Of a stretch of 64,000 nt of DNA, positions 33,788 to 54,747 are shown piece by piece. Position numbers and translations under genes: made by a program. The first letter of the stretch is position 1; each line of letters starts with the position of its first letter. The DNA is from Todiramphus chloris collaris (lineage: Eukaryota > Chordata > Aves > Coraciiformes > Alcedinidae). The stretch is taken from contig JANVCC010009742.1 in NCBI GenBank assembly GCA_025345505.1, forward strand, positions 3,335,637-3,399,636, given 5' to 3'. The notes under the pieces are model-generated. The model saw nothing but the letters and a program-made list of their open reading frames with translations. It made no database searches and had not been told where the DNA came from.

Positions 33788-34300
33788 CTAGTTGCTGTAG
33801 GCGCCCAGATAATCCAGCTTGCCGATGGGAACCCCATTGTGCCGCAGGATGTCATGGGCGGTGGTGACGTGGAAAAAGAAGTTCGGCAGCGCGAACTGCA
33901 GCATGTAGTCATGGCCGCCCAGATGCGCCTTGTGCGGACCAAAGCTCAGGGTAACCTCGCGGCCTTCGCTGTCATCGAGCACTGATGTGTCCAGGCCTTC
34001 CAGAAAGGCCACGGTCTTGTCTATCCGCGCCTTCAGATCGGCAAAGCTCACTTCATCGTCGGGAAAGCTTGGCACTTTGACATCGGTCAGGCGGGCAATG
34101 GTCGCCTTGGACGTGTCGCTGGCCCGTTGGATCTGCCCCGAAAAGGGCAGCATGTCGGGGGCCAGGCGCGCGCTGACAAGCACGGAAGGGTCGATCTTCT
34201 TTTCCTGCGCATAGGCTTCGGCCTTGGCAATCAGCGCCGAAACGATCGAAAACCCGCGGATAAAGACCGGGACTGAAATCTGGTACATGGAAAGCGGCAT
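33788..34300 (-). CDS. DUF1993 family protein
   Basis: A 170-residue protein that begins MYQISVPVFIRGFSIVSALIAKAEAYA and contains FPDDEVSFADLKARIDKT, the histidine-bearing LGGHDYMLQFALPNFFFHVTTAHDILRHNGVPIGK, and the typical end YLGAY. This is the DUF1993 pattern, related to DinB-like four-helix metal proteins; function unknown. The ATG at 34300 has GGAAGGA upstream. Confidence 0.9.
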   Translation of the reverse strand: MPLSMYQISVPVFIRGFSIVSALIAKAEAYAQEKKIDPSVLVSARLAPDMLPFSGQIQRASDTSKATIARLTDVKVPSFPDDEVSFADLKARIDKTVAFLEGLDTSVLDDSEGREVTLSFGPHKAHLGGHDYMLQFALPNFFFHVTTAHDILRHNGVPIGKLDYLGAYSN

Positions 34301-34367
34301 GGGTGTTCCTTCCGGGAGCATGCTTGTTTAAGCAGTTGCGCTTTCCGATTCCGGAACAGCAACCGCA

Positions 34368-35450
34368 TCAGGCAAATATATGCGGCTCGCCAAGGACTTC
34401 AATGCGCACATGATCCCCGGTTGCAGGAAGATTGACCGCGGAACACTTTATCTGCACCGGCGCGGCCCTCTGGCCGTTGCAAGAACCGTGGTCTCCCATG
34501 ATGGCAAGCGTCACTGTGCACACCGCCCCGCCAAATTCGATGTCAACGACCCTGCCATAACCGGCATTCTCGTCAGGGGCAGCCACGGCGTCGCTCTCGG
34601 TGACGGAGACTAGTTTCAGCTGTTCGGGGCGCAGCATGATTTCCGCTGTGCCCAGCCGTTCGGCTGTCTGCGCCTTCAACCGGCCAAACGCGCAATCGAT
34701 CCAGCCGTTGCCGATCTGCGCCGGCAGCAGAATTGCATCGCCAAGAAACGAGGCCGTCGTGCGGTCCGACGGGTTCAGATAGAGCGAGCGCGGCGGTCCG
34801 GCCTGAACCAGTTTGCCCTGCCGCATCACGGCGACCTGATCGGCAAAGGACAGGGCCTCCGCCTGATCGTGGGTGACCAGAATGGTGGTAATGCCGGCTT
34901 TTTTCAGAACCGCAGCAACAGCCTTGCGCATGTTTTCGCGCAGACCGGTGTCGAGCGCGGAAAACGGCTCGTCCAGCAGCATCAGTTTGGGCTGGCGTGC
35001 CAAAGCCCGGGCAAGCGAGACCCGTTGCTGCTGTCCACCGGAAAGCTGATGCGGCCGGCGGTTCAGCATGATGGGGTCGAGCTCGACCATATCCATGAGG
35101 GCAAGGATGCGCTGGCTGCGGTCGGGACTACGCTTGTCCAGGCCAAAGCCGATATTGTCGGCGACGGTCAGGTGCGGGAAAAGCGAGCCATCCTGCGTCA
35201 CGAACCCGACACTGCGGCGATGCGCCGGAACGATCGCCGCACCCTCGGCCAATACATCGCCATTCAGTGTCACCTGGCCGCTGTCCGGGGCTTCAAACCC
35301 GCCAATGAGGCGCAGCAGAGTGGTCTTGCCCGATCCCGATGGTCCGACAACCGCCGTACGGCTGCCTGCTGCGACTGACAGCGTGACGTCATCGACGGCG
35401 GTGGTGACACCGTATCGTTTTGTTACACCGCGAATGTCGAGAAAGGTCAT
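34368..35450 (-). CDS. fbpC: Fe3+ ABC transporter ATP-binding protein
   Basis: A 360-residue ABC ATPase with Walker [17 protein letters not shown], signature [16 protein letters not shown] and Walker [15 protein letters not shown]-terminal TOBE-like regulatory extension follows ([12 protein letters not shown]). It matches FbpC/AfuC ferric iron importers. Its start overlaps the permease stop by 4 bp. Last gene of a fbpA-fbpB-fbpC operon read on the - strand. Confidence 0.88.
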
Positions 35451-37048
35451 CGTCCAATAATCCGTTTCGATTGGGCATGCAGCAGGAGCGTGAGGGGCAG
35501 GGACAGCACCACCATCATCAGTGCATAGGGCGCGGCAGCCGCATAATCAATCTCGCTGGTCAACGACCAGAATTCCGTCGCCAATGTTCGCGTGCCATTG
35601 GGCGCAAGCATCAGCGTGGCCGTCAATTCATTGGTAATGCCGAGCGCCACCAATGCGACGCTGGCGGCGGCGCCGGGCGCAGCCAGCCGCATGGTAATGC
35701 GCGTGACCGCCTGCACCGGCGTGCGCCCAAGCGCCATGGCGGCCCGCTCCAGTTCGACAGGCGCCTGCGCGATGCTGGCCCGCAGTCCGACGAGGGCGCG
35801 CGGCAGGAAAAGCAGACCGTAGGCGAGCAGCAGCGTCGCGGCGGTCTGGTAAAGCGGCAGGACAACACGCACCGTGATGGTCACAAGTGCCAGCGCGACC
35901 ACGACCCCGGGCAGGGAGCCGACATAATAATGGCAGGCCTCGAGGGCCCGCTGCATGCGGCTGGGAGCCCGCACCGAAAGCCAAGCCATGGGGGTCGCTG
36001 CGACGGTGGCCAGCAAGGCCCCGGCAACAGCCAGCAGCAGTGTTGTCCCGAAGGCAGTGCCGATTTCGTTCAGCTTCCACACCGACGTGCCGCCGGCAAT
36101 CAGCCAGCGGCCAAGGGTGACGAATGGAACGCCCAGCGCCAGCGCCGTGGTTGCCAGCGGAATGAGCAGGCAGGGCAGGGCAAGCCAGCCCAGCCGGTAT
36201 TTTGTGATCGGGCGCGCCGATCCCGAGCCGACACGCGCATAACGTTCATTGCCGCGGATCAACGCTTCGAGTGCCAGCAAACCGGCGCAGCACAGCACCA
36301 GAACACCGGCCAGCATGTTGGCGGCAGGACCGTTGAAGGTCGACTGGAACTGGTCAACGATGGCTGTCGCGAAGGTATCGAAGCGGATCATGACGAAAAG
36401 GCCGTATTCCGCCAGAAGATGCAGGCCGATCAGCAGGGAGCCGCCGCAAATGGCAAAACGCAGCTGCGGCAGGAGCACCCGGAAGAAGACCCGCCACGGA
36501 CCGAGGCCAAGCGATGCGCCGACATCTTCCATGGCCGGATCGACGCGCCGCATCTGCGCCGCGACCGGAAGATAGAGAAACGGGAAATAAGCCAGAACGG
36601 AAACCAGCACGCCGCCGAACAGGCCATGCAGGCTGGGGGCCATGCTGATCCAGGCATAACTGTGGACAAATGCCGGGACGGCAAGCGGCGCAACCGCGAG
36701 CCACGCCCACAGGCGGGCGCCGGGCAGGTCGGTGCGCTCGGTCAGCCAGGCAAGGCTGACCGCCAGAACGATGGAAAGCGGGATTGTCCAGACTTCCAGC
36801 AGCACCGTATTGATCAGCAGTTCACCGACGCGGGCGCGGAACACCAGGGTGACGACCGTATCCCAGCCGGTCTGGATGGTCACCCAGATGACGAAACCGA
36901 GCGGCAGAAGGCTGAGCAGGGCAACAAGCCCGGCGAGGCCGAAAACGGATAAAAACGGCAGGCGACGCACGGCATGATGCGGGACCAAGGCCAGCTGCGC
37001 TGCAGCTGCATTGGGACGTTGGCCGTTTATTGATCCGGTAGACAACAA
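35447..37048 (-). CDS. fbpB: Fe3+ ABC transporter permease (two-domain)
   Basis: A ~533-residue permease with about twelve helices and two inner-membrane component loops ([23 protein letters not shown] and [22 protein letters not shown]), the duplicated design of FbpB. The start is uncertain: a TTG at 37048 is used, and other in-frame starts exist within the first 30 codons. A 150-bp gap with a small hairpin separates it from fbpA. Confidence 0.88.
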
Positions 37049-37176
37049 TTCACATTTGCTTTCATATGCACGAACACCCGCCGGCGGCCAGATTGGCCTT
37101 CATACCCGAAGGGGAATCGAACAACACCCCCTGCAAGATCAAATGTCTGTGCAGGAGGTGTCCAGAGTTATTTCAT

Positions 37177-37192
37177 TGCCGGCTAACCGGCA
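37177..37192. other. Intercistronic hairpin between fbpA and fbpB
   Basis: Short perfect stem TGCCGG / CCGGCA with a 4-nt loop, 7 bp after the fbpA stop and without a T run. Such stems often protect the 3' end of binding-protein mRNA and let the binding protein exceed the permease. Confidence 0.45.
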
Positions 37193-37198
37193 TTGTGG

Positions 37199-38209
37199 TT
37201 ACAGCAGGCCCGCTGCCGTCATCAGGTCCGTCACCTTCTTGCTGTTCAGCTTCGAAGGTTCGACCTTCGGCGCCTGCAGATCGGCCAGAGGCACCAGAGC
37301 GGCATTGGATGCCGCATCCTTGCCAACGGCATATTCGAAGGAATCCCCATCCTTCAAGATTGCCTGGCCAGCCTTGCCGGTGACCCACTTCAGGAACGCC
37401 TGGGCATCTTCCTTGTGCTTGCTCGAAGCCAGAACACCGCCGCCGGAAATGCTGACGAATGCGCCCGGATCCTCATGCTTGAAGTAGTGCAGGGACACGT
37501 TCTTGGTGTTTTCGCCGGTTTTGGCCTTATCGCCGAAATAGTAATAGTGATAAATCACCGCGCCTTCGATTTCTCCGGCATTGACGGCCTTCATGGCAAC
37601 GCTGTTGCCCTTATAGGCGGTCGCATTTTCCTTGAGTGCCTTCAACCACTTGGCTGTGGTTTCCTCGCCCTTGAGTTCCAGAAGCGCGCTGACGATTGCC
37701 TGGAAATCCGCGCCAGCCGGTGCGGCGCCCCAGCGGCCCTTCCAGCTTGCATCGGCAAGGTCGAGCAGCGACTTCGGCAGCTTGTCTTCCGTCAGCTTGT
37801 TCTTGTCATAGGCGAACACGGTGGAACGGGCGGCAACGCCGGTCCAGCGGCCATGTTCCGGGCGGTAATTGGCCGGCACCTGATCGAGCACTGCCTTGTC
37901 GAGCGGTGCGAACAGCTTGGCATTGTCGACCAGAACCACTCCCGGGGAATTCTCCGTCAGGAATGCGTCAGCCGGGGAAGCAGCGCCTTCCTGCACGATC
38001 TGGTTGGCCAGTTCCATGTCCTTGCCGTTGCGGATCGTCACCTTGATGCCGGTTTCCTTGGTGAACCCGTCGGCCCACGCCTTGGTCAGGCTTTCATGCT
38101 GCGCATTATAAACAACGATGCCATCGGCGTTCTGCGCCATTGCCGGCGCGGCGATCAAGGCAACAGCGAGCGCCGCGGCACTTGCAAAAGTCGGAAAGTT
38201 GATTTTCAT
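37199..38209 (-). CDS. fbpA: Fe3+ ABC transporter periplasmic binding protein
   Basis: A 336-residue periplasmic protein with a signal peptide (FASAAALAVALIAAPAMAQ). The mature domain starts DGIVVYNAQHESLTKAWADGF, and the C-terminal lobe has the paired tyrosines of the FbpA iron site (AVIYHYYYFGDK). GRWTGVAARSTVFAYDKN fits family 1 iron-binding proteins. The ATG at 38209 is preceded by AAGAGG. First gene of the - strand fbpABC operon. Confidence 0.9.
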   Translation of the reverse strand: MKINFPTFASAAALAVALIAAPAMAQNADGIVVYNAQHESLTKAWADGFTKETGIKVTIRNGKDMELANQIVQEGAASPADAFLTENSPGVVLVDNAKLFAPLDKAVLDQVPANYRPEHGRWTGVAARSTVFAYDKNKLTEDKLPKSLLDLADASWKGRWGAAPAGADFQAIVSALLELKGEETTAKWLKALKENATAYKGNSVAMKAVNAGEIEGAVIYHYYYFGDKAKTGENTKNVSLHYFKHEDPGAFVSISGGGVLASSKHKEDAQAFLKWVTGKAGQAILKDGDSFEYAVGKDAASNAALVPLADLQAPKVEPSKLNSKKVTDLMTAAGLL

Positions 38210-38494
38210 GAAAACCTCTTTGATTTGTATGGCTTGCAGAGCAAATTTCGGTTGCGCCAGCAATGGACCCCGGAACAAGTGAGCCATACAAAACATGAGC
38301 GGTCTGGTCAACAAAAAATGGTTGGCGTTTATAACCCAAAATGCCTATCACAAAATAGTTATCACCCGCATTGTCGGGTGTGATTTGCGTTCCGGCGCAA
38401 AGAGGAATCTACTCGTTTTGTCCGCGATTTTGGCGTGCCTCAGGCACGGCAGTGCGGCATTGAAAAACTTTCAGTCATATCCAGGGAGTGTGTC

Positions 38495-38788
38495 ATGCCT
38501 TTTTCAAGCAGGGACCAACGCATTCACTCCACGACGGATTGGGACATCATGCAGCAGGCCCATGACCGGGCTTCCAAAATGCTCGATCGCTGCCCGAAAA
38601 CCCACGCTCGCTGCAACCAGCTCGCCCGGATTGTCATTGCGATCTACGAAAGCGGTGTGCGCGATGTGGATGAGTTGGCCGTCATGGCGGCAAATCGCGA
38701 ACTGAACGTCTTGGCGGAGAGAGGACATTTTCAAAAGCCGTTCCGCTTCACGCCAGCCGACGAACGCCCGCAAATACTGCATTCGTGA
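38495..38788 (+). CDS. Small hypothetical protein
   Basis: A 97-residue soluble protein (MPFSSRDQRIHSTTDWDIM; QLARIVIAIYESGVRDVDEL) with a good ribosome binding site (CCAGGGAG, 6 bp). It resembles small conserved rhizobial hypotheticals with no known function. It converges on the microcin exporter gene with a 24-bp gap. Confidence 0.6.
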   Translation: MPFSSRDQRIHSTTDWDIMQQAHDRASKMLDRCPKTHARCNQLARIVIAIYESGVRDVDELAVMAANRELNVLAERGHFQKPFRFTPADERPQILHS

Positions 38789-38812
38789 GAGCGTATCTCT
38801 TGTGATCGCGCT

Positions 38813-40930
38813 TCAGGATATGGCTTCCTCGATTATGCCGTTCTGAATTCTGATTGTTCTATGCGCAAGAGCGATGCTTGATTGCCGGTGCACCACAATA
38901 ATTCGCGTTATGGCAAGGCTGGCCAGTGCGCCGTTGATCTTTTTCTCATTGTCTTCGTCAAGATGGCTGGTCGCCTCATCGAGAAACAGGATTTTTGGCT
39001 GGCGGTAAAGCGCGCGCGCCAGAAAAATCCGCTGTCTTTGGCCGCCGGACAGTGCGCTGCCCATATCGCCGACGAGTGTCTCGTAGGCCATAGGCATACG
39101 GTTTATCTCGTCGTCGATGGCCGCAAGTCGTGCGCATTGGCATACCCGCTCGCTATCGTGTTCCGGATCGAAAGCGGAAATATTTTCGGCGATCGTACCG
39201 GCGAAAAGCCGGTCATCCTGCAGAACACAAGCAACCGCTTTGCGATAGTAAGATGCGCCGAGGCGGTTGATATCCTGTCCATCGATCGACAAATGGCCAT
39301 CCTGAATCACCAGCAATCCCGCCAGGAGCTTCATGAGCGTGGTTTTGCCTGCGCCGGATGGACCCGTCAGAGCAATGATTTCTCCCGGATTGATGGTGAG
39401 ATTGATATTCGTCAGAACAGGCGGGTCACCATCACTATAACAAAAGGTCAAATCCCTGACTTCCAATCTGCCCTGCAACCGCGACATGTCCCGCTCACCC
39501 CACACGGCGCCGGTTGCCTCCTCGGGGGTGCCCAGGGCGATATCGGCAAGGCGTTCGGCGTGCATACCGAGCATGTTGAGCCGGACGGCCAGACCGATGA
39601 GCGCAGACACCCGCCCGGTGAACTGGTCCTTGTAGGCAAGGAAAGCAATGAGCATACCGATGGTCATGGCTCCGTCCATGACGGCCGAAGCTCCCAGCCA
39701 GAGCATGATGATGCGGTCAAAACCATCAAGGAGATCGCTTGTCGTACCAAAAACCAGATCGAGTTTCCGGATGCGCAGGTCCGCATTGATCGATTCGACC
39801 ATCAGGTTAAGCCATGCTCCGCGCCGTCGTTCAAACAGATCGAGCGCCTTGAGGCTGGCAATGCCCCGAATGGATTCCAGAAAGTGTGAATCCTCTTTGG
39901 CTCCCTGCACGATGGCTGCCTCGTTGGCTGCCCGATAGGCCGGGTAGGAGACGACGCGAATGAGGGTCTGGATCGCCAGCGTGGCGACAGCGACCCATGT
40001 CAGCCAGCCGCCATAGATCAGCATCAGGCTCAGCGAGCCCGCAACAACCGTGACATCGAGGACAGCCGCAACGATGTCCGTGGTCAGCGCCGACTGAATG
40101 GGAACGAGCGAGGAAAAGCGCGACACGACATCGCCGATATGACGCTTTTCGAAATAGGACAAGGGAAGGCGCAGCAGGTGATCGAACAGTCCGGTTGTCC
40201 ATTGCAGGTTGAGACTGGTGCCCAAGACAAGTCCGGCCCAGCCGCGTGCAATCCCGATCATCGTCTGGAGCAGCAGGAACAGGCATAGGCCAATCGCGAT
40301 GGTGATGAGCAGATCGTGATCGGCCGAGACGACAACCTGATCGATAATGATTTGCGAACCCACCGGGCTGAGGAGCGCAAAAACCTCCAGGCAGAGCGAC
40401 AGCAGAAAAAGCTGGGTCAGCGCGCGCTTGAGGCCGGCGACATTGCGGAACAGATCGCTCAGGCGAATGCGTTCTCTTTCGACTTTTTTCGCAAAGCCGC
40501 CGGTCGGCAACAACTCCAGCGCGACGCCGGTGAAATGGGCCGAGGCCTGGCCGAACGTGAGAGAGCGTCGCCCGAGCGCAGGGTCGTGGACGACGATCCC
40601 CTTTGCCGTTGTCTTCGCCAGGACAACAAAGTGGGAGAAATCCCAATGCAGAATGCAGGGCAGGCGCAGATCGGCAAAATCTGCAACATCGAGACGAATG
40701 GCCCTGCTGGCAAACCCGAGCTTTGTCGCAATACGCATCAAGGACGTCAGCGCCGTGCCCTTGATGGAAGCCGCGTGCCGGCGGCGAAGGACGCCAATAT
40801 CCACTCGGTTGCCGTGAAAACCGCAGATCATGGCGAGACAGGCAAGGCCGCATTCGGCCACTTCCGTTTGCAGGATGACCGGCAAGCGATGCCTGAAGCC
40901 GAATGACACCCTATTGAGCACCGGATTCAT
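38813..40930 (-). CDS. C39-peptidase ABC exporter of a double-glycine peptide (CvaB/RaxB type)
   Basis: A ~705-residue peptidase-containing ABC transporter. The N-terminal C39 peptidase has Gln21, catalytic Cys27 (QTEVAECGLAC), His100 (DFSHFVVL) and Asp116 (VHDPALG), all intact, so it should cleave double-glycine leaders. The membrane domain follows (PVGSQIIIDQVVV onwards). The ATPase has GPSGAGKTTLMKLLAG, LSGGQRQRIFLARAL and ILFLDEATSHLDED. It overlaps the HlyD gene by 20 bp and is the last gene of an operon with a matching precursor peptide (42758-43144). Confidence 0.93.
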   Translation of the reverse strand: MNPVLNRVSFGFRHRLPVILQTEVAECGLACLAMICGFHGNRVDIGVLRRRHAASIKGTALTSLMRIATKLGFASRAIRLDVADFADLRLPCILHWDFSHFVVLAKTTAKGIVVHDPALGRRSLTFGQASAHFTGVALELLPTGGFAKKVERERIRLSDLFRNVAGLKRALTQLFLLSLCLEVFALLSPVGSQIIIDQVVVSADHDLLITIAIGLCLFLLLQTMIGIARGWAGLVLGTSLNLQWTTGLFDHLLRLPLSYFEKRHIGDVVSRFSSLVPIQSALTTDIVAAVLDVTVVAGSLSLMLIYGGWLTWVAVATLAIQTLIRVVSYPAYRAANEAAIVQGAKEDSHFLESIRGIASLKALDLFERRRGAWLNLMVESINADLRIRKLDLVFGTTSDLLDGFDRIIMLWLGASAVMDGAMTIGMLIAFLAYKDQFTGRVSALIGLAVRLNMLGMHAERLADIALGTPEEATGAVWGERDMSRLQGRLEVRDLTFCYSDGDPPVLTNINLTINPGEIIALTGPSGAGKTTLMKLLAGLLVIQDGHLSIDGQDINRLGASYYRKAVACVLQDDRLFAGTIAENISAFDPEHDSERVCQCARLAAIDDEINRMPMAYETLVGDMGSALSGGQRQRIFLARALYRQPKILFLDEATSHLDEDNEKKINGALASLAITRIIVVHRQSSIALAHRTIRIQNGIIEEAIS

Positions 40931-42242
40931 TTCTTGTGCTTGATCCCGGCCCGCCGCCAATGCCGCCGCTCAGGCTGTAGAGCGGCTCCAATATCCATTC
41001 ATACAGCTTTCTGGTTTCCAGAAAGACATCGGCTTCGACGTCCATGCCGACCTGCAATGGTTCACGTTTGCCATAGGCAAGCACGGTGTCCTGCTCCGGC
41101 TTGGCGGAAACCCGATAAAAGCCGCTGGGCGGCTGTTTTCCCGCGATTTGCCCGCCGGCAATGCCTTCGCCGTCCGTTGCGCGCAACGCGACGCGGGAAA
41201 TCTCTGCAATGATCGCGGGATACTGGCCGAACTTCTGATAGGGAAACGGCGCGTAGCGCAGAAGCACAGGCGATCCCTGTCTGATAAAACCGATTGCCGC
41301 GCTTGAGGCAAAAAAGTGAATTTCCAGATGTCCCGATGCCGGCAATATGGACAAAAGCGGTGTGCCTGCGCCAACCGTCTGCCCCGACTGGACAAGCACG
41401 GCTGTCACCGTGCCATCCTGTGGCGCCGTCACCAATATTTCCCGGTTGCGCTCCATATCTGCGCTCTGTTGATCAAGAGCCGATATTTGTCGCCGCAACC
41501 CGCCGATGGCGGATGCCGCCTCATGATCGAAGCCCCTGAGCTTGGAACGGATCTCCTGCAATTTGGACTGCAGCTGGATGGTGTCCCGGCGCAGGTTTTC
41601 CAGCAGTGCGCGCTGCCCCATGTAACTTTCCCGCCGCACCTCGAATTCCCGTTGTGCAACAATGCCTTTCTCAACGACGCCTTCCAGCCTGTCGGCGAAT
41701 TGCTTCAGGGTTTCCGCATAGGTGGCCGTTACGGATATCTGTGCCGCAACCTGGGCAATCTCCCGCTCGAGCGCAGCCGCCTGCTTTTGCAGATTGTCCC
41801 TTTGTTCCTTGTCCAGTTCAACGCGGCGCGCAATCTCCACCTGCAGTTCGTTTCGCTGCAGGCGGATCTGGCCGATGATGGCGGCATAGGTGTTTCCATC
41901 GGAGGTCGTACTATCGGTGCTCAATACATACAGGCGGTCGCCTTTATGCACGGGCTGCCCCTCGCTGGCTGAGGTTTCGACAACCCGTCCGGCTTGCGGA
42001 GCAATCAAACGCACGACGCCGACGCTGGTCTGCACCGTGCCGGTGAGGCGGACCCTGCGCGTGTATTCGCCAAATGCCACGAACATGCCGATCATTGCGA
42101 CCGAAGCCACCGCACACCCCGTCGCCACTGTTGCGGATATCGGTCGCAATAATTGCGGGCGGCCGAACCATTTGTGCTTGCGGCCGTCAATGGCTTCCTG
42201 ACGAAAAAGCGCAAGATTTGCGCTCTCATTCGCGGGGGGCAC
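40911..42242 (-). CDS. HlyD/CvaA-type periplasmic adaptor of the microcin exporter
   Basis: A ~443-residue membrane fusion protein: short cytosolic start, one helix (SATVATGCAVASVAMIGMFVAF), a lipoyl half (RLTGTVQTSVGVVRLIAPQAGRVV), a long coiled coil (about residues 100-250), then the second lipoyl half and beta-barrel (VTAPQDGTVTAVLVQSGQTV). It links the ABC exporter to an outer-membrane TolC. I take the GTG at 42242, which overlaps the end of the upstream PrsW-like gene; that start has no strong ribosome binding site and is the least certain part. Confidence 0.88.
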   Translation of the reverse strand: MPPANESANLALFRQEAIDGRKHKWFGRPQLLRPISATVATGCAVASVAMIGMFVAFGEYTRRVRLTGTVQTSVGVVRLIAPQAGRVVETSASEGQPVHKGDRLYVLSTDSTTSDGNTYAAIIGQIRLQRNELQVEIARRVELDKEQRDNLQKQAAALEREIAQVAAQISVTATYAETLKQFADRLEGVVEKGIVAQREFEVRRESYMGQRALLENLRRDTIQLQSKLQEIRSKLRGFDHEAASAIGGLRRQISALDQQSADMERNREILVTAPQDGTVTAVLVQSGQTVGAGTPLLSILPASGHLEIHFFASSAAIGFIRQGSPVLLRYAPFPYQKFGQYPAIIAEISRVALRATDGEGIAGGQIAGKQPPSGFYRVSAKPEQDTVLAYGKREPLQVGMDVEADVFLETRKLYEWILEPLYSLSGGIGGGPGSSTRNESGAQ

Positions 42243-42708
42243 TGTTGATGCGCCGTTCAAAGTAATAGTAGCCAAACAGAAGAACCACCTCGGCGAGTGT
42301 ATATGGCAAGGACAACACGAGCGTATAAGAATATAGGGGTAGGGTCGGCAGCTGATAGAGAGTAAAATTCGACGCAAAATGCACCAGTGTGCAGTAGAAG
42401 ATTGCCGCGTAAATCCATCTGGCTTTGGCATAAACCAATGATGTAAAAATGTGAAAGCTGGTTGAGGAGACAACGACGAACAAGGTTCCAAGCACTGCAA
42501 ACACCGGACCGGCACCAAGTTCCAAAGTGTGCTCGTAGACCACCGGTGTCTTGAACACACATTCGAGGCCAAAAAACAGGAAATAGGACGGTATGCGGAA
42601 CCTGGTGTCGCGGAACAGGACAACGAGGTAAGCCTTGATCAACTCCTCAATCCCGGCCAAAATAAATGTCGTTGAAATATTCCGGGCCAAATCCAAAGCA
42701 TTGCTCAT
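42226..42708 (-). CDS. PrsW-like membrane protein, paralogue 1
   Basis: A 160-residue protein with about four to five hydrophobic helices. All four motifs of the PrsW intramembrane protease family are visible: EELIK (residues 21-25, EExxK), FFGLE (45-49, FxxxE), HIFTS (86-90, HxxxS) and HFASN (110-114, HxxxN). The first 107 residues are nearly identical to the paralogue at 43364-43843; the last 50 are unrelated. It sits between the precursor and the HlyD gene. Either processing of the peptide or self-immunity (CPBP/PrsW-like proteins do both in bacteriocin loci) is possible. Confidence 0.72.
   Translation of the reverse strand: MSNALDLARNISTTFILAGIEELIKAYLVVLFRDTRFRIPSYFLFFGLECVFKTPVVYEHTLELGAGPVFAVLGTLFVVVSSTSFHIFTSLVYAKARWIYAAIFYCTLVHFASNFTLYQLPTLPLYSYTLVLSLPYTLAEVVLLFGYYYFERRINSAPRE
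42388..42708 (-). repeat. Duplicated 5' part of the PrsW-like genes, copy 1
   Basis: About 320 bp nearly identical to 43523-43843, direct orientation. Identity extends a few bases upstream of both start codons (CTCATGGTTC / GGATTGA) and fades abruptly at codon ~107. Confidence 0.9.
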
Positions 42709-42728
42709 GGTTCAGGATTGAGAGGGGT

Positions 42729-42749
42729 AAGCGCGGCCATGCCGCGCTT
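42729..42749 (-). other. Intercistronic hairpin downstream of the microcin precursor
   Basis: Perfect 8-bp stem AAGCGCGG / CCGCGCTT with a 5-nt loop, 9 bp after the precursor stop and before the PrsW-like gene. There is no T run. Partial termination or mRNA stabilisation would give more precursor than exporter mRNA, as in other bacteriocin operons. Confidence 0.55.
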
Positions 42750-42757
42750 TAAGATAT

Positions 42758-43144
42758 TCAGGCTAGCGGGACCGGTATTGACCTTTGCCGCCACCACCTG
42801 TTTCCGCCTTGGTTGGGGCCATTGCCGTCGCCACTACCGCCGGTATAGTCGCCCATCGCGTTGTAGGCACCAAAATCTGGCGTACCGCCGCCTTTGAACG
42901 CACTTTTGATGGCCTGGCCAATATAACTCAAGAGATTATCCTTCGGATTATTGGACGGCAGTCTCGATGCCTCATAGGTATGGTCCATGATGGAGCCGCC
43001 ATCGGCCCCCTTGCCAATGCCTTTACCCGTAGCACTTGAGCTTTTGCTGTTACTGGATGTTTGGCCTTTGGAATAACCGGTGTCGCGATCCAAAGCGCCT
43101 CCACCAACGACGAACGATATTTCATGCTCGGTTAGTTCACGCAT
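42758..43144 (-). CDS. Double-glycine-leader precursor peptide (microcin/bacteriocin candidate)
   Basis: A 128-residue precursor. It begins MRELTEHEISFVVGG, a textbook double-glycine leader (compare colicin V MRTLTLNELDSVSGG) with the conserved E, hydrophobic positions and GG at residues 14-15. Cleavage would release a ~113-residue Gly/Ser/Asn-rich core without cysteines and with a Trp/Arg end (NRWWRQRSIPVPLA). GGAG precedes the ATG at 43144, which is preferred to the ATG 4 codons upstream. It is followed by its likely exporter. The activity and target are unknown. Confidence 0.8.
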   Translation of the reverse strand: MRELTEHEISFVVGGGALDRDTGYSKGQTSSNSKSSSATGKGIGKGADGGSIMDHTYEASRLPSNNPKDNLLSYIGQAIKSAFKGGGTPDFGAYNAMGDYTGGSGDGNGPNQGGNRWWRQRSIPVPLA

Positions 43145-43363
43145 CAAAATCTCCATATTTAAATAATAAAATCAATATGTTGAAATATGAAATCTACTCG
43201 ATGGATTTATTGTGTTCATAAAATGCAGTGCCGTGAAAACACTGTTTGGCTGCTCATTCATGGAATGCCCGCAAGGCCTCTATCCGGGTATTATTGATTG
43301 GACGGATGATACTTCCATGAAACCCTGACGCCAATCCGTAGCTATACTTACAGCCGCCCGCGC

Positions 43364-43843
43364 TCAATCGCAGCGCGCAACGTTCATCCATCGTTCGAAA
43401 TAAAAGTAGGCAAAGAGAATGATTATCGCGACTGATGTATATGGCCACCAGATGAACGCGTAGATTTTGAGGGGAATAGCGGGCAAATAATCCATCGTCG
43501 TGTTGACGGTGGAATGAATGACTGTGCAGTAGAAAATTGCCGCATAAATCCATCTGGCTTTGGCATAAACCAATGATGTAAAAATGTGAAAGCTGGTTGA
43601 GGAGACAACGACGGACAAGGTTCCAAGCACAGCAAATACCGGACCGGCACCAAGTTCCAACATGTAATCATAAATCACCGGCGTCTTGAAAGCGCACTCC
43701 AGACCAAAAAACAGGAAATAGGACGGTATGCGGAACCTGGTGTCGCGAAAAAGGACAACGAGGTAAGCCTTGATCAACTCCTCAATCCCGGCCAAAATAA
43801 ATGTCGTTGAAATATTCCGGGCCAAATCCAAAGCAGTGCTCAT
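43364..43843 (-). CDS. PrsW-like membrane protein, paralogue 2
   Basis: A 159-residue protein, near identical to the paralogue at 42226-42708 over its first ~107 residues and different after that. The four PrsW-type motifs are again intact: EELIK, FFGLE, HIFTS and HSTVN (residues 110-114). The C-terminal helix (YTSVAIIILFAYFYFERWM) differs. It lies upstream of the precursor on the same strand. The duplication looks recent. Confidence 0.72.
   Translation of the reverse strand: MSTALDLARNISTTFILAGIEELIKAYLVVLFRDTRFRIPSYFLFFGLECAFKTPVIYDYMLELGAGPVFAVLGTLSVVVSSTSFHIFTSLVYAKARWIYAAIFYCTVIHSTVNTTMDYLPAIPLKIYAFIWWPYTSVAIIILFAYFYFERWMNVARCD
43523..43843 (-). repeat. Duplicated 5' part of the PrsW-like genes, copy 2
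   Basis: Partner of 42388-42708, offset 1135 bp. The few differences cluster around codons 50-65 and 70-80. Confidence 0.9.
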
Positions 43844-43875
43844 GGTTCGGGATTGAAGGTGGCACGTGCGTGCGG

Positions 43876-44259
43876 TTATTTGTGGTTTTCGTCAGTCAAT
43901 TCTTTTGGTCTGGCCGTTAGCTGCGCGATGAAAAAACAGGCGAAAACTCCGGAAAACACGAGTGTTGCTGAAATGAAATCTGTATCGTCTCCACAGTACA
44001 GTAGGCTAAACAGAGTTGAGCCTACGATGGATTTCAATATTACTTTATAAGAATTGGTAAAAGTTGAATCTTTTATGCATGAAAACGCAATAATTATTGA
44101 TGGAATTGATAGTAACTTTAGTATCAATAGGACGTGCGGGTGGTTTCTAAACGTCGAGTCCGATATTATGATTGCTGCTAGTGCAAGAAAAACAAGTGTG
44201 TTGCAGCCGCTCTTTTTATATTGAGAAAGCATTGGCATACGCGTTGTCCGTAAGATCAT
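43876..44259 (-). CDS. Small AT-rich multi-helix membrane protein (possible immunity protein)
   Basis: A ~120-127-residue protein with about four hydrophobic helices (NTLVFLALAAIIISDSTF; VLLILKLLSIPSIIIAFSCI; VILKSIVGSTLFSLLYCG; ISATLVFSGVFACFFIAQL) and a polar tail. The base and codon use is clearly more AT-rich than the neighbours, a sign of transfer. It is first on the - strand of the microcin cluster, 32 bp before PrsW-like paralogue 2. Size and position fit an immunity protein, but no family is recognised. Start uncertain (several Met within 10 codons). Confidence 0.55.
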   Translation of the reverse strand: MILRTTRMPMLSQYKKSGCNTLVFLALAAIIISDSTFRNHPHVLLILKLLSIPSIIIAFSCIKDSTFTNSYKVILKSIVGSTLFSLLYCGDDTDFISATLVFSGVFACFFIAQLTARPKELTDENHK

Positions 44260-44577
44260 TTTTGAAATGAGAACGGCTGGTTATCAATAAAATCACCACT
44301 CCCACTCCGCCGTTTTCAACCATATTTGTAAATCCGAGCAAATACCTTGATTGCCTTTCCATCTGTTACACCCGCATAGCCTGACGTACCCCCACGGCAT
44401 GGCCAAAACCTGCGCGGCCAAGGCGATCGCTGAATGAAGGCCTTTCGCTATCATGCTCCGGTGCACCACCAGTGCCAATTGGTAACCATACCTATCGCCG
44501 CAATGGATTTCAGCACCAGCCACAATCTGCTACATCGCATTTGCCGTCTGAGGCCGGATTCGCGTGTGGAGAGAGTG
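44260..44577. other. 318-bp interval without a convincing gene
   Basis: Lies upstream of both the microcin cluster (- strand) and the DUF1349 gene (+ strand), so it should hold divergent promoters. A 76-codon - strand frame (44293-44523) reads like the decayed piece of some coding sequence but cannot be assigned. Confidence 0.45.
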
Positions 44578-45153
44578 ATGACTGATGCGTTCAACTGGCT
44601 CAATGCGCCGCCGTCCCATCACGGCGAAGCCCGTCTGCTCACGCTTGCGACGGCTGAGAACACCGATTTCTGGCAGCACACCTTCTATGGTTTCGAGCGC
44701 GACAACGGCCATGCCTATCTGACGCCGGTCAGCGGTGATTTCAGCGCCCGCGTGACAGTGCGCGGCGATTACCGGGAACTCTATGACCAGGCTGGTCTGA
44801 TGCTGCGGATCGACGCCCGGACCTGGATCAAGACCGGCATCGAATATACCGACGGCCTCATGCATTTCAGCGTTGTCGTGACCAAGCGCGTATCCGATTG
44901 GTCCGTCATTCCCCTGCACAGCGCCCGTGTCGACGACGCGGTGCACATCCGGCTGACCCGCCATGATGATGCGGTGCGGGTCCAGTATGCCATCAATGAT
45001 GCGCCGTGGCAGCTGGCGCGGCTCGCGCCATTTCCCAAAGACGATGCGTCGGTCGGTATCATGGCCTGTTCGCCGCAGCGCGGCGGCTTTGCGGCGGAAT
45101 TCCGCGATCTCGAGGTCGGTCCGGCAATCCCGCGTGACCTGCATGCGGACTAG
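44578..45153 (+). CDS. DUF1349 family protein
   Basis: A 191-residue beta-sandwich protein of the DUF1349 (concanavalin-like) family: FYGFERDNGHAYLTPVSGDFSARVTVRGDY, YDQAGLMLRIDARTWIKTGIEYTDG, then SVVVTKRVSDWSV and GIMACSPQRGGFAAEF. Probably carbohydrate-related, but not proven. The ATG at 44578 has GAGAG upstream and matches the family start. Confidence 0.9.
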   Translation: MTDAFNWLNAPPSHHGEARLLTLATAENTDFWQHTFYGFERDNGHAYLTPVSGDFSARVTVRGDYRELYDQAGLMLRIDARTWIKTGIEYTDGLMHFSVVVTKRVSDWSVIPLHSARVDDAVHIRLTRHDDAVRVQYAINDAPWQLARLAPFPKDDASVGIMACSPQRGGFAAEFRDLEVGPAIPRDLHAD

Positions 45154-45174
45154 GCCGCGGCGAGGGGCGGCTTG

Positions 45175-45930
45175 CTAATCGGCAAACAGCTCCGGCCGTT
45201 TGGTCTGCAGCTGCAGCAGCATTTTGCCCATCTTCGAAATATGCTCTTCCATCGCCGCCGCCGCGCGCTCGACGCTGTTGTCGGCAATGGCATCAACAAT
45301 AGCCTGGTGCTCTTTCAGCGTTTCGACCATGCGCGTTTCGTAGTGCAGGAGCAGCCGCCGCACGCGGTCGATCTGGCTGCGCTCCTTGGCGGCAATTTCG
45401 CGCAATCCAACCAAACCCGCCGCATCGCAGATCATGTCGTGCAATTCCTCGTCGAGCGCGTAAAACCCTTCGAAATCCCTGGAGTCCGCTGCCTTGCGCT
45501 GCCGGTCGAGATTATCGCGCAGGCGCTGCACGATCTCAGCCGAGCTGCGTTCTGCCGCCCGCCGGATGGCCGCCGTTTCCAGGGCAATGCGCACGAATTG
45601 GGCTGTCTCGATCTTGTCGAGGCGCAGCCGGGCAACGAAAGTGCCGGTTTGCGGGTAAATCTCCACCAGGCCTTCGTCGGCGAGGCGGTTGATGGCATCG
45701 CTGACCGGCGTGCGTGATACGCCGAGCTGCAGCGCCACCAGTTCCTTGCGGATGGCTTCGCCGGGCGCCAGCTGCGATGAAATGATGGCCTGACGCAGGA
45801 TGGAATAGACCTGGTCCTTGCGTGTGACCGCAATGACCTTCTGTTCCCTGAAACTCTTGCTGCCTGACCCCAATTGCACGTCCAAAGCTCCCCGGTAGGC
45901 CCTGTTGCATGGCAGGAGGCTGAATTCCAT
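45175..45930 (-). CDS. GntR family transcriptional regulator (FCD subfamily)
   Basis: A ~251-residue repressor-type protein. The N-terminal winged helix reads VYSILRQAIISSQLAPGEAIRKELVALQLGVSRTPVSDAINRLADEGLVE. The C-terminal FCD ligand domain has the metal-binding pattern (DEELHDMIC, EHQAIVDAI, ANDxER-type AAMEEHISKM). It is divergent from the sugar ABC operon at 46016, with a palindrome between them, so it probably controls that operon. Start uncertain: ATG at 45930 or a start nearer the winged helix. Confidence 0.88.
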   Translation of the reverse strand: MEFSLLPCNRAYRGALDVQLGSGSKSFREQKVIAVTRKDQVYSILRQAIISSQLAPGEAIRKELVALQLGVSRTPVSDAINRLADEGLVEIYPQTGTFVARLRLDKIETAQFVRIALETAAIRRAAERSSAEIVQRLRDNLDRQRKAADSRDFEGFYALDEELHDMICDAAGLVGLREIAAKERSQIDRVRRLLLHYETRMVETLKEHQAIVDAIADNSVERAAAAMEEHISKMGKMLLQLQTKRPELFAD

Positions 45931-45969
45931 TTCTCCGAATGAAGCATTTGACTCCTGCACAATAACATC

Positions 45970-45979
45970 TAACATGTTA
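45970..45979. promoter_or_regulatory. GntR operator candidate
   Basis: Perfect palindrome TAACATGTTA in the intergenic region between the divergent GntR gene and the ABC operon, about 35 bp before the TTG start of the ATPase gene. Position and symmetry fit a GntR-type operator. Confidence 0.55.
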
Positions 45980-46015
45980 CATATTAACTTGAAAGAATGT
46001 TTTGGGAGGAACATT

Positions 46016-47572
46016 TTGGATAGTCAGCTGCCGATCGTCTCGATGCGCGGCATCAGCAAGTCATTCGCTCATATTGTTGCCCTGCGAAGTATCGATCTCG
46101 ACATCTATCCGGGCGAGATTCATGCCATCATGGGGGAGAACGGTGCGGGCAAGTCGACGCTGGTGAAAATCCTCAGCGGCGTGCATCGTCGCAGCGGCGG
46201 TGACATGCTTGTCCGGGGGCGGGCGGTCGACTTCGCCTCGCCGCGGGAAGCCGAGCATAACGGCATCGCCATCATCCACCAGGAACTCAACCTCATTCCA
46301 AGCCTCAGCGTGTCCGAGAATATTTTTCTCGGGCGCGAGCCGCTGATCGGGGGCCTGTTCATTGATCGCAGGAGCATCGAGACGAAGAGCGCAGAGCTGC
46401 TCGACCGCTTCGGCATCGATATTGATCCGCGTGCCGATGTGGAGAATTTGCGCGTCGGCGAGCAGCAGCTTGTCGAGATTGCCCGCGCATTGTCCCTGAA
46501 TGCCGACGTGCTGGTTCTGGACGAGCCGACCTCGGCGCTGTCGGAGGCCGAAGCCCAGAGACTGGCCAGTTTTGTGCGGGAACTGGCCCGTAACGGCGTT
46601 GCCATCATCTACATTTCCCATCGGATGAATGAAATATTCTCGCTTGCCGACAAGATCACCGTGTTGCGCGACGGCAGCTTCATCGCCACGCGCCGGGCCC
46701 AGGATGTGAGCGAGCGCGATCTCATCCGCATGATGGTTGGGCGCGATCTGGCAGCACCGGAACCCAAGGCGGATAGATCGGGCAGGCCGATTGTACTTGA
46801 AGCGCGCAATCTCGCCCTACGCCGCCCGAATTCGCGCGGCAGCATGCACAATGTCGTCGAGGATGTGAGCTTCGATCTCCACGCCGGCGAAATTCTCGGG
46901 ATCGGCGGGCTGCTCGGTTCCGGGCGCACTGAAGTGCTCGAACTGATTTTTGGCGCGGCGACTGGAGAACGCTCCGGCACGATCACCCGCAACGGCACCA
47001 GCCTTGCCGCCGCGTCCCTGACCCCACGCCGGTCGGTGGCGAAGGGCATTGCCTTCCTCACCGAAGACCGCAAGGGAACGGGTCTTCTCATGAATGCGGA
47101 CATCCGGGCCAATGCCGTTCTGCCGTCCTTGCCGTGGCTCGCGCCGTTCGGCTGGATCAGCCGCCGGCGCGAGGACCCCGTGGCGGGCCGGATCATCAAA
47201 GCGATGCACGTGCGCTGCGATGGCCCGGACCAGAAGATCGATCAGCTGAGCGGCGGCAACCAGCAAAAGATCGTGCTGGGCAAATGGCTGGAAACCCGGC
47301 CCAGCGTCGTCCTCTTGGATGAACCGACCCGGGGGATCGACGTCGGCGCCAAGGATGAAATCTACGAGCTCCTGAAAAAACTCGCTTTGTCCGGCGTGGC
47401 GGTGATCATGGTGAGTTCCGAATTGCCGGAACTTCTTGCGCTCTCCAGCCGCATCCTCGTGATGTGCGAGGGCAGGGCGGCGGGCATTCTTGAGAGCACA
47501 GCGTTTTCCGAAGAACAGGTGATGGAACTGGCGACACCCCTGGGCACGGCTCTGACAAAGGACGCGGCATGA
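46016..47572 (+). CDS. Sugar ABC transporter ATP-binding protein (RbsA/MglA type)
   Basis: A 518-residue protein with two ABC domains in tandem. The first has GENGAGKSTLVKILSG, the RVGEQQLVEIARAL segment and VLVLDEPTSAL. The second has GIGGLLGSGRTEVLELIFG and a full LSGGNQQKIVLGKWL with VVLLDEPTRGIDVG, the usual degenerate/active pair of ribose-type importers. The TTG at 46016 is supported by GGGAGGA 5 bp upstream. Leads an ATPase-permease-binding protein operon opposite the GntR gene. Confidence 0.94.
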   Translation: MDSQLPIVSMRGISKSFAHIVALRSIDLDIYPGEIHAIMGENGAGKSTLVKILSGVHRRSGGDMLVRGRAVDFASPREAEHNGIAIIHQELNLIPSLSVSENIFLGREPLIGGLFIDRRSIETKSAELLDRFGIDIDPRADVENLRVGEQQLVEIARALSLNADVLVLDEPTSALSEAEAQRLASFVRELARNGVAIIYISHRMNEIFSLADKITVLRDGSFIATRRAQDVSERDLIRMMVGRDLAAPEPKADRSGRPIVLEARNLALRRPNSRGSMHNVVEDVSFDLHAGEILGIGGLLGSGRTEVLELIFGAATGERSGTITRNGTSLAAASLTPRRSVAKGIAFLTEDRKGTGLLMNADIRANAVLPSLPWLAPFGWISRRREDPVAGRIIKAMHVRCDGPDQKIDQLSGGNQQKIVLGKWLETRPSVVLLDEPTRGIDVGAKDEIYELLKKLALSGVAVIMVSSELPELLALSSRILVMCEGRAAGILESTAFSEEQVMELATPLGTALTKDAA

Positions 47573-48894
47573 CACGAGCGAGCGAGCAGACAATGCAGTC
47601 ATCCCAAGGCAATCTTAGCCGGATCAAGCGCCTGCTGAATGCAACTAAGCTCTACTGGGGATTGGTGCTGCTCTTTCTGGTCGGCATTTTTTCATCGCCG
47701 ATCTCGTCCAAGGGGCACAATATTTTCCTGTCCTATGGCAATCTGTCCGATGTTTTCCGGCAGATTTCGGTTACCGGCATTACTGCCGTGGGCATGACGC
47801 TGGTGATCCTCATTGCCGGAATTGACCTGTCGGTCGGGTCCGTGCTTGCGCTGGGTTCCGTCGTCTGCGCCATGCTTCTGACCAATGAGGGCTGGTCGGC
47901 GGCCTATACCATCGGCGTTCCCGCCATTTTCGTGCTGGCATTCCTTGTTGTGCTGGGGGCGGGGTTGTTCCTTGCCAAGGTACCTGGCCGCGCCGTTGGC
48001 GAGCCCGAAAATGACCGGACGCACCTGAACCGCATTATCGCCCTTGTGGCTGTGGTCGCCGCGGCCGCTGTCGCCTGGTGGGTCGCCTCCGGCACGGATG
48101 CAAAGGCCGGCGTGCTGCTGGTGCTCGTGGTGGTTCCGGCCGTCGGTTTCATGCTCGGCATGGTCAACGGCCTCGTCATCGTTGGCGGTCGCCTGCAACC
48201 GTTCATTGTGACACTTGCCATGATGGTGGCGGGGCTGGGCATTGCCCGCCTGACGGCGGGGCAGAATACGGCGGTCTGGCCGGTCTATACCGGCAGCAAC
48301 GCGACGGCGAATTTCGAATTCCTGCGCGCGCTCATTTTCGGGCTGATTCCGGTGCCGGGTCTGATTTTCGCCGGCATCATTCTCCTGTTCTGGGTGATCC
48401 TGAAATACACCAAGTTCGGACGGTACATCTATGCCATCGGCGGCAATGAAGAGGCGGCGCGGCTCGCCGGCGTGCCGGTCTGGCGGGTAAAGATCAGCGT
48501 CTATGCCATATCGGGATATCTCGCCGCACTGGCGGGCATTCTCTATGTCGCGCAATACAGGCAGGGAAAGCCCGATGCGGGCATGGGGCTCGAACTCGAC
48601 GCCATTGCTGCCGTGGTGATCGGCGGCACCAGCTTGATGGGCGGGCGCGGCTCGATGATTGGCACCCTTGTCGGCGTCCTCATCTTCGGCTTTCTCAGCA
48701 ATATCCTGCAGCTCAACAATATCGACAGCAACACGCAGCTGGTGCTCAAGGGCATCATCATCATCGTGGCGGTGCTGCTGCAGGAGCGGCGCTCCAGCGG
48801 ATGGCTGTTTTTTCTCTCCCAGCTCATGACAGCCACGCCGTCCAAGAAATCCGTGCCCGGCAAGCCAGAAAACCGGCAAGGGCAGGGTGATTGA
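47569..48894 (+). CDS. Sugar ABC transporter permease (RbsC type, long form)
   Basis: A 441-residue permease with about ten helices. The N-terminal GITAVGMTLVILIAGIDLSVGSVLALGSV and C-terminal GGNEEAARLAGVPVWRVKISVYAISGYLAALAG are characteristic of the ribose/xylose permease family. At 441 residues it is ~110 longer than RbsC because of extra hydrophobic sequence around residues 120-190, as in XylH-like permeases. It overlaps the ATPase stop by 4 bp (ATGA). Confidence 0.92.
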   Translation: MTRASEQTMQSSQGNLSRIKRLLNATKLYWGLVLLFLVGIFSSPISSKGHNIFLSYGNLSDVFRQISVTGITAVGMTLVILIAGIDLSVGSVLALGSVVCAMLLTNEGWSAAYTIGVPAIFVLAFLVVLGAGLFLAKVPGRAVGEPENDRTHLNRIIALVAVVAAAAVAWWVASGTDAKAGVLLVLVVVPAVGFMLGMVNGLVIVGGRLQPFIVTLAMMVAGLGIARLTAGQNTAVWPVYTGSNATANFEFLRALIFGLIPVPGLIFAGIILLFWVILKYTKFGRYIYAIGGNEEAARLAGVPVWRVKISVYAISGYLAALAGILYVAQYRQGKPDAGMGLELDAIAAVVIGGTSLMGGRGSMIGTLVGVLIFGFLSNILQLNNIDSNTQLVLKGIIIIVAVLLQERRSSGWLFFLSQLMTATPSKKSVPGKPENRQGQGD

Positions 48895-48925
48895 ACCAAC
48901 AACAAGGACTATCAGGGAGGATAGC

Positions 48926-49891
48926 ATGAGACTGACACGCAGACATTTTGCCAGACTGGCAATGGCAACCGCCTTCATCGCGCCGCTGGCGCTCCACATG
49001 CCGGGCGCATGGGCCAAGGACAAGTATGTCATCGGCTTCAGCCAGACCACGACCGTTGAACCCTGGCGTGTCCAGTTCAACAAGGATCTGGTTGCCGAAG
49101 CCAAGAACCATCCGAATGTTGAGCTGCTTGTCGCCGATGGCCAGGACAAGACGGAAAAGCAGGTGGCGGACGTTGAAAACTTCATCCGGCAGGAGGTGGA
49201 CGCAATCCTGATTTCACCCAAGGAATCGGCAGGCCTGACCGGTGTCGTGGAGAAAGCGATGGATGCCGGCATTCCGGTGATCGTGCTTGACCGCAACGTC
49301 GATACCGACAAGTTCACCCAGTGGATCGGCGGCGACAATGTGGTGATCGGCGAAGCGGCGGGACAACATGCCGTGGAACTCCTCGGCGGCAAGGGCAAGG
49401 CCAAGGGCACCGTCGTTGAAATCTGGGGTGGCCTCGGCACGCAGGCGAGCCATGACCGCAGCAACGGTTTCCACAAATACACCGACGCGGAGAATGGCAT
49501 CACCTATCTCCTGGACAAGCAGTCCGGCGACTGGAAGCAGGATCAGGCCTACAACATCATGGCAACCGCTCTGCGCAACCATGAGGACATCAAGCTGGTC
49601 TACGGCCACAATGATCCGATGGCCTATGGTGCCTATCTCGCCGCCAAGGATGCGGGGCGCGAGAAGGACATCCTGTTCCTTGGTGTCGACGGACTGCCGA
49701 ATGAAGGCGTCCAGTGGGTCAACAAGGGCGAGCTCGCCGCAACGTTCCTCTACCCGACACCCGGAGCGGAGGGATTGCGCCAGGCGCTGAAAGTTCTGGC
49801 GGGCGAAAAGGTGGAAAAGAAGATCGTTCTTGGCACTGAAACCATCACCAAGGCGAATGCGCCGGAGATTCTCAAAAAGAACGGTCTTTGA
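48926..49891 (+). CDS. Sugar ABC transporter periplasmic binding protein (RbsB type)
   Basis: A 321-residue type 1 periplasmic binding protein with a twin-arginine-like signal (RLTRRHFARLAMATAFIAPLAL) ending MPGAWAKDKY. The mature domain shows VIGFSQTTTVEPWRVQF, VDAILISPKESAGLTGVV, GIPVIVLDRNVDTD and KLVYGHNDPMAYGAYLAA. The ligand is probably a pentose/hexose or polyol, but cannot be specified. It follows AGGGAGG, 31 bp after the permease. A hairpin follows. Confidence 0.92.
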   Translation: MRLTRRHFARLAMATAFIAPLALHMPGAWAKDKYVIGFSQTTTVEPWRVQFNKDLVAEAKNHPNVELLVADGQDKTEKQVADVENFIRQEVDAILISPKESAGLTGVVEKAMDAGIPVIVLDRNVDTDKFTQWIGGDNVVIGEAAGQHAVELLGGKGKAKGTVVEIWGGLGTQASHDRSNGFHKYTDAENGITYLLDKQSGDWKQDQAYNIMATALRNHEDIKLVYGHNDPMAYGAYLAAKDAGREKDILFLGVDGLPNEGVQWVNKGELAATFLYPTPGAEGLRQALKVLAGEKVEKKIVLGTETITKANAPEILKKNGL

Positions 49892-49909
49892 CCACTGAGA
49901 GCAAAGAAG

Positions 49910-49950
49910 TGGAGTAACCGCTTTAGAAAGAGCAGTTACTCCATTGTTAT
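49910..49950 (+). terminator. Terminator-like hairpin after the sugar ABC operon
   Basis: Inverted repeat TGGAGTAAC / GTTACTCCA with a 16-nt loop followed by TTGTTATTT, about 20 bp after the last gene. Confidence 0.6.
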
Positions 49951-50034
49951 TTCGTCGATATTTCATTCTTCAAGTTTTGATGCATGGCTGTTGCACAGGG
50001 TGCGCAACCCAGCGGCATCGCGTAATGATTTGAC

Positions 50035-50054
50035 ATGCAACTAAAAGGTTGCAT
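50035..50054. promoter_or_regulatory. ArsR operator candidate
   Basis: Perfect inverted repeat ATGCAAC - 6 nt - GTTGCAT, ending 9 bp before the ArsR start codon. It also has a TTGACA-like element next to it. Autoregulation by the downstream ArsR repressor is expected. Confidence 0.65.
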
Positions 50055-50063
50055 AATGTAGAT

Positions 50064-50841: not shown

Positions 50842-50894
50842 GCGCCCGAATAAAAACGGGAACGATGTAGAATGTCGGCCCGTTCAATCGTCCT

Positions 50895-51278: not shown

Positions 51279-51314
51279 CACCCATAAAAGGGATTTCAGC
51301 GCAATCGGGGTGAC

Positions 51315-51788: not shown

Positions 51789-51808
51789 CAGGGCTTCCCG
51801 TTTCGCCG

Positions 51809-54736: not shown

Positions 54737-54747
54737 GGTTCTCTCCC

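Follow-up and report, generated by a model that had tools for sequence, protein, structure and literature searches.

The 64,000-nucleotide stretch analysed here (the window; positions 3,335,637 to 3,399,636 of contig JANVCC010009742.1, Todiramphus chloris collaris assembly GCA_025345505.1) carries a strain-variable island of six genes that probably encodes a class II-type microcin, i.e. a bacteriocin, of a Phyllobacterium-like bacterium, with PrsW2 as its cognate immunity protein and PrsW1 directed against a related microcin. The six open reading frames (ORFs) all lie on the minus strand between 38813 and 44259, at the positions given by an earlier sequence-only reading, which had also placed all six on one strand. 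Their transcription order is 127-amino-acid membrane protein, PrsW1, precursor, PrsW2, HlyD adaptor and C39 ATP-binding cassette (ABC) exporter (Table 1). From the gene content, the island boundaries, the conservation of motifs and the pairing of PrsW with one type of core, all computed, we infer the following course. During export, the C39 domain of the exporter would remove the double-glycine (GG) leader from the 128-amino-acid precursor, and the way out would be formed by HlyD together with a TolC-like channel whose gene lies elsewhere. The released core, hydrophilic and of 11.6 kDa, may then act on close relatives of the producer. PrsW2, one of the membrane proteins of the PrsW/Rce1/APH-1 superfamily, would protect the producer, possibly by proteolysis, while PrsW1, whose C-terminal third has diverged, probably protects against a related microcin.

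Table 1. The variable island of the window and its six genes.
Feature	Position	Strand	Basis
Strain-variable island, all six genes inside	38791..44507	.	blastn of window against L110 and reading of the junctions
Peptidase-containing ABC exporter (C39 + ABC membrane + ATPase)	38813..40930	-	Pfam domains; ATG 40930
HlyD-family periplasmic adaptor	40911..42242	-	PF13437, E=2.4e-17; GTG start 42242 overlaps PrsW2 end
PrsW2, 160-aa PrsW/APH-1-like membrane protein, candidate cognate immunity protein	42226..42708	-	
Microcin precursor, 15-aa GG leader (43144-43100) + 113-aa core, C-terminal PDFGAYNAMGDY motif	42758..43144	-	
PrsW1, 159-aa PrsW2 paralogue, candidate second immunity allele	43364..43843	-	DNA and residue identity to PrsW2
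127-aa membrane protein, three hydrophobic stretches, possible accessory immunity gene	43876..44259	-	ORF and hydropathy

The position of the PrsW-like genes among related loci carries this interpretation. Two types of core are distinguished: type B, the kind found in the window, and type A, rich in glycine zippers. The two share a PDxxxYxxMGDY segment in their C-terminal part. In each of the six loci read that have a type B core (window, L003 (= G458), L088 B, L089, L094 and L095), the gene immediately downstream of it is PrsW-like; this holds for none of seven other precursors (L088 A, L088 C, L004, L005 and the type A cores of L090, L121 and L122). The type A cores are followed by a membrane protein of 58-60 amino acids in four cases out of four. 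The one-sided Fisher test for this pairing gives 0.0006, or 0.018 with the Rhizobium loci collapsed, on lists of 13 precursors assembled from ORF tables and tblastn, not blind, from which a weak G470 hit had been dropped before the count. That precursor-like match of G470 has two stops, and nothing was seen in its stretch L123. PrsW2 thus occupies the slot next to the precursor and tracks the core type, protection being its candidate function. The sequence-only reading had called the pairing with PrsW proteins unusual; it is real and recurrent, but the slot is where class II microcins ordinarily carry their immunity gene, as in microcin S. An array is found at L088:5860-9293, where three cassettes of precursor and membrane protein with near-identical leaders lie behind a single HlyD and C39 exporter. 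The middle precursor, of type B, shifts frame between leader and core, and a 134-amino-acid protein of this array is weakly similar to the 127-amino-acid protein of the window (30% over 37 amino acids). A gene for an Rce1-like CPBP protein follows the 58-amino-acid protein in all three type A loci of Rhizobium (L090:6774-7439, L121:8256-8921, L122:7713-8195); the match to the CPBP family of Pfam was checked in L090 alone, and L122 has a shorter frame.

The Rhizobium relatives bear on what the PrsW-like proteins do. As read, their cores begin at MGGSS, closely preceded by the ribosome-binding site AGGAGA, and lack a leader; the DNA upstream of MGGSS looks non-coding. An upstream in-frame ATG would allow an 18-residue extension, MMHHIMKFQPKAQDRRSF, before MGGSS in four of the six cores (L090, L094, L121, L122). 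Its interpretation as an odd leader ending in GG was tentatively rejected because AGGAGA before MGG is kept in all six, L003 has no in-frame start, and in L095 the upstream DNA is in another frame, with an 8-amino-acid extension only. L094 and L121 have, by the core, a complete divergent type I system composed of a 551-amino-acid ABC protein, HlyD and a member of the RTX toxin acyltransferase family (L094:3446-6865, L121:4124-7541), the three proteins of L121 being 93, 94 and 90% identical to those of L094. The ABC protein of L094 matches HlyB only from model position 126, so it is without the N-terminal peptidase-like domain, and the L094 acyltransferase matches PF02794 (E=1.3e-35; family tested for L094 and L089). 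The HlyC-type acyltransferase next to apparently leaderless cores suggests acylated small bacteriocins. The same type I system accompanies a type B core with PrsW in L094 and a type A core without PrsW in L121. PrsW therefore goes with the core and persists where a leader is probably absent, which is our main argument for immunity over processing. Precursor homologues without a GG leader, which the sequence-only reading had expected to count against a microcin, thus apparently exist in Rhizobium. They speak against PrsW as a leader protease and not against a microcin, because the intact exporters (L094, L121) are of a different, peptidase-free type I. Four Rhizobium PrsW loci have a broken or missing exporter in the stretch read. 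Their PrsW frame is open in L003, L090 and L095, and interrupted by one stop in L089, where at L089:7364-7778 the antisense of the HlyD 3' end continues into the frame of the core, an arrangement that a deletion of exporter and start would explain.

The PrsW-like proteins could instead be maturation proteases, with either the exported peptide (to be trimmed or activated) or a regulator as their substrate; such roles have been proposed for SilX and SagE. The invariance of their intramembrane protease motif residues suggests that the chemistry is kept, CAAX proteases can process peptides in bacteriocin clusters (PMC9298176; this and the other PMC sources are cited from parts of their text), and PrsW domains were proposed to process and extrude polymorphic toxins (PMC3482391). 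We find this role unlikely: the exporter of the window already contains a C39 peptidase, PrsW still accompanies the type B core in L094, where the exporter has no C39 domain and the core is seemingly leaderless, and no PrsW was found beside the type A core of L121 with the same exporter, nor in L122. The loci of exporter relatives point in the same direction. Among the best 80 of 119 candidates (L004-L083), some of which end at contig ends (L006, for example, starts within HlyD), a PrsW-like match at E<=1 is absent throughout. In two of the three most closely related of these loci, another membrane protein is encoded between precursor and HlyD, each with a different precursor: a 65-amino-acid membrane protein in L004 (Paramesorhizobium deserti) and a 300-amino-acid Rce1-like protease in L005 (a Mesorhizobium metagenome-assembled genome).

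A profile search found PrsW-like genes in 2 of 394 genomes of the family and in 4 of 148 genomes of Rhizobium, the genus of G301 (NZ_CP072143.1 is among them and G301 is counted again). The precursor profile matches 7 of these 148 genomes, one weakly, and among 397 genomes of the order the precursor profile (A4) matches G301 only. The samples of class, order and family are thin and rarity is only roughly known. A search of genome and viral contig collections with the PrsW alignment found no relative, and 20 genomes of the genus of G380, the island-free genome described below, gave no strong PrsW-like match and three weak ones (E about 0.004, partial profile, long frames).

The microcin-like layout proposed by the sequence-only reading is supported by leader, exporter, adaptor and gene order. 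The precursor most likely starts at 43144, with GGAG just upstream, which gives 128 amino acids and the double-glycine leader MRELTEHEISFVVGG, as found in class II microcins; the corresponding leaders are MRELTVNEMTLVFGG in L004 and MRELTVTEMASVFGG in L005. The core was rightly described as long, cysteine-free and rich in Gly, Ser and Asn: it has 113 residues, 11.59 kDa, no Cys, 39% Gly+Ser+Asn and no hydrophobic stretch. Its WWRQR-type tail does not hold as a conserved feature, as the 117-amino-acid homologue P0011 stops at the preceding NR. The exporter has Pfam matches far above cut-off to PF03412 (Peptidase_C39, E=2.1e-32), PF00664 (4.2e-34) and PF00005 (1.3e-33), and with HlyD it forms the C39 exporter and adaptor pair of a class II microcin cluster. 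Cys, His and Asp are at the expected places (C37, H110 and D126 in the numbering of the long ORF), and we take them to be the catalytic residues of the C39 family; the Cys-His-Asp site reported as intact is thus present in its residues. The exporter does not reach the equivalog cut-off of the NHLP bacteriocin export family TIGR03796 (498 versus 853.3 bits). A Gly/Ser/Asn-rich hydrophilic core without membrane segment might also be a secreted surface, aggregation or signalling peptide, with the membrane proteins as its receptors or anchors. The PDxxxYxxMGDY motif, common to otherwise different cores, could then be an assembly signal, and two type A cores match a glycine-zipper/OmpA-like family weakly, far below cut-off. 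We judge such a peptide quite improbable, the core-specific membrane protein, the cassette arrays, the strain variability and the second paralogue being traits of toxin-immunity systems.

Assignment of PrsW1 and PrsW2 to their superfamily relies on motifs and, tentatively, on a predicted structure. The residues that define the superfamily are an EExxK-type motif, one Glu and two His, distributed across four core helices (PMC6588880). The PrsW-like proteins have E21, E22 and K25 (helix 2-32), E49 (38-63), H86 (68-95), and H110 and N114 (99-118), all invariant in 22 sequences down to 28% identity. The predicted model of these proteins is closest to APH-1, a relative of PrsW/Rce1. The four PrsW motifs noted in both proteins by the sequence-only reading are thus confirmed as residues, but no curated profile joins them to PrsW. 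No PrsW or CAAX model of Pfam or NCBIfam matches PrsW1 or PrsW2; PF13367 matches none of 13 relatives (E limit 10; filters drop most matches above 0.1), and the CPBP/Rce1-like PF02517 matches neither the window proteins nor these 13, while the Rce1-like proteins of L005 and L090 do match it. A whole-genome search with PF13367 matched none of the 5 genomes of interest, but 4 of 14 control genomes and 16 of 289 genomes of the class. Comparison by hhalign with 14 of the 20 PF13367 places from the class search (L130, L131, L134, L138, L139 and L143 were dropped) aligns locally only the EExxK segment, over 20-21 columns with a probability of 33-37% and a score of 30.8-31.7 versus 17.8-18.2 for the best of 100 shuffles. 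Globally, the score exceeds that of each of 100 column shuffles, yet E49 and H86 do not line up with the PrsW motifs. The comparison is of low power in this case: with three CPBP proteins it stays at noise level, and CPBP against PrsW is itself weak.

PrsW1 and PrsW2 share 92% DNA identity over 300 bp. Their first 106 residues are identical at 99 positions, with nonsynonymous substitutions per site (dN) of 0.03, and their last 53 at 21 positions (dN 0.51); H110 and N114 are kept in both copies though they lie in the diverged part. This sharp step fits two immunity alleles with a similar first part and a diverged, would-be toxin-recognising part. Several of the relatives are clearly decayed: Rhizobium has exporter fragments, the PrsW of L089 is interrupted, and the precursors of L122 and of L088 (type B) seem to change frame. 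The island could likewise be a decaying remnant without present function. This is very improbable for the window, which retains six open frames and the C39 residues, and in which purifying selection is seen in the conserved part of PrsW1 and PrsW2 (dN/dS about 0.15).

The island boundaries were located by blastn. Stretch L110 of genome G380 matches the window at 34945-38790 (97.3% identity) and 44508-60062 (96.5%), has no match in between and carries about 93 bp in place of 38791-44507 (5.7 kb). A neighbouring gene is 99% identical in G380, and the two genomes look like the same species. The more distant relative G155 (L111, about 80% flank identity) has no match to the island either. The variable block therefore comprises the six genes and little else. 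On its right it is bordered by a gene for a DUF1349 protein (window 44434-45153; PF07081, E=6.3e-63); the match to the island-free genome restarts 74 bases within the longest DUF1349 ORF, beside an in-frame ATG at 44503. The guanine and cytosine content is 43-47% across 43000-44499; in the 500-base steps beyond the island borders (34000-38499, 44500-47999) it is 52-67%. Two signals between PrsW1 and the precursor bear on co-transcription, a stem resembling a terminator (43244-43226) and a site resembling a promoter (43191-43163). Promoter-like sites occur at about the chance rate in this DNA (6 versus 4.4 expected), and terminator-like ones number 12 versus 6.8. Insertion at a tRNA gene was rejected, there being no tRNA in the window, and so was a known defence island, since PADLOC recognises none of the four small proteins. 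Phyllobacterium is the source of both named homologues of PrsW2. The window is plainly bacterial and lies inside a eukaryote's assembly (1.17 Gb, 889 contigs), as a symbiont or a contaminant. Elsewhere in the window, a cobalamin riboswitch at 25340-25490 on the minus strand is barely over the Rfam threshold (31.9 versus 31.5 bits).

Several points weigh against a microcin with PrsW-type immunity. The mature peptides of class II microcins are usually below about 10 kDa; the core exceeds this limit and has no hydrophobic stretch. The best Pfam precursor profile is that of MccV, below its cut-off (E=0.046, 14.7 versus 27 bits). The pairing rests on few loci, with 13 precursors, several of them in closely related loci, and the Rhizobium loci are related to each other. 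In L090 a type A core, the 58-amino-acid protein and the Rce1-like protease are followed by a PrsW-like gene with no adjoining type B core. SilX, a CAAX protease encoded near bacteriocin genes, did not sensitise its strain when deleted (PMC9298176), and the CaaX-protease gene adjoining cdz is dispensable for killing (PMC5380434). The parallel with microcin S is also loose, McsI belonging to another family and being predicted without transmembrane helices.

A wider scheme, which we consider doubtful but possible, takes these loci as small rhizobial bacteriocins built from interchangeable cores and the PDxxxYxxMGDY end. They would use two export modes, one with GG leader and C39 exporter, the other leaderless with a peptidase-free type I system and a HlyC-type acyltransferase, perhaps for a fatty-acylated product. 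The PrsW/APH-1-like protease would destroy or displace the type B toxin in the producer membrane, its specificity residing in the last third. To our knowledge, bacteriocin immunity is known only from the CAAX/Rce1 branch; if the reading of the island as a microcin with PrsW-type immunity is true, the PrsW/APH-1 branch joins it. Very small natural pairs would then be at hand for asking whether intramembrane-protease folds protect by proteolysis, and the island-free sister genome makes a test direct. The Rhizobium relatives further suggest that a core can switch from leader-dependent to leaderless export, which would bear on the evolution of type I secretion signals.

Among known systems, microcin V and other class II microcins share the GG leader, the C39 ABC exporter, the HlyD adaptor and the weak MccV match with the island, and differ by their immunity family and by a core that in the window is longer, hydrophilic and cysteine-free. 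Cdz of Caulobacter is likewise alphaproteobacterial, with type I-secreted small toxins and a membrane immunity protein (PMC5380434). The likeness extends to the glycine-zipper-rich type A cores of the relatives, with 6 (L088), 8 (L090) and 8 (L121) GxxxGxxxG matches, but the core of the window has just two isolated ones and no glycine-zipper run, and CdzI, with three predicted transmembrane segments, has no obvious homologues according to that paper. PrsW peptidases (PF13367) have the same EExxK, membrane Glu, His and HxxxN across four helices; the window proteins differ in having no PF13367 match, in their five to six helices within 160 amino acids and in standing alone in a microcin operon. 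Microcin S (mcsS-mcsI-mcsA-mcsB) has the same order of precursor, intramembrane-protease-like protein, HlyD and ABC exporter, and its second gene, mcsI, of the CAAX-protease family, was tested and confers immunity (PMC3316575). McsI has 216 amino acids and was predicted by its authors to lack transmembrane helices (PMC3316575), whereas the window has two membrane proteins of about 160 amino acids that are PrsW/APH-1-like and unmatched by Pfam CAAX and PrsW models. The general layout being known, the claim of an undescribed system made by the sequence-only reading is too strong. A PrsW-type immunity protein was not found among the papers listed on PrsW with bacteriocins or immunity proteins and on broader topics, as judged by titles and the starts of abstracts in a coverage mostly outside subscription journals. 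What looks new in the island is this kind of immunity protein and its pairing with one type of core.

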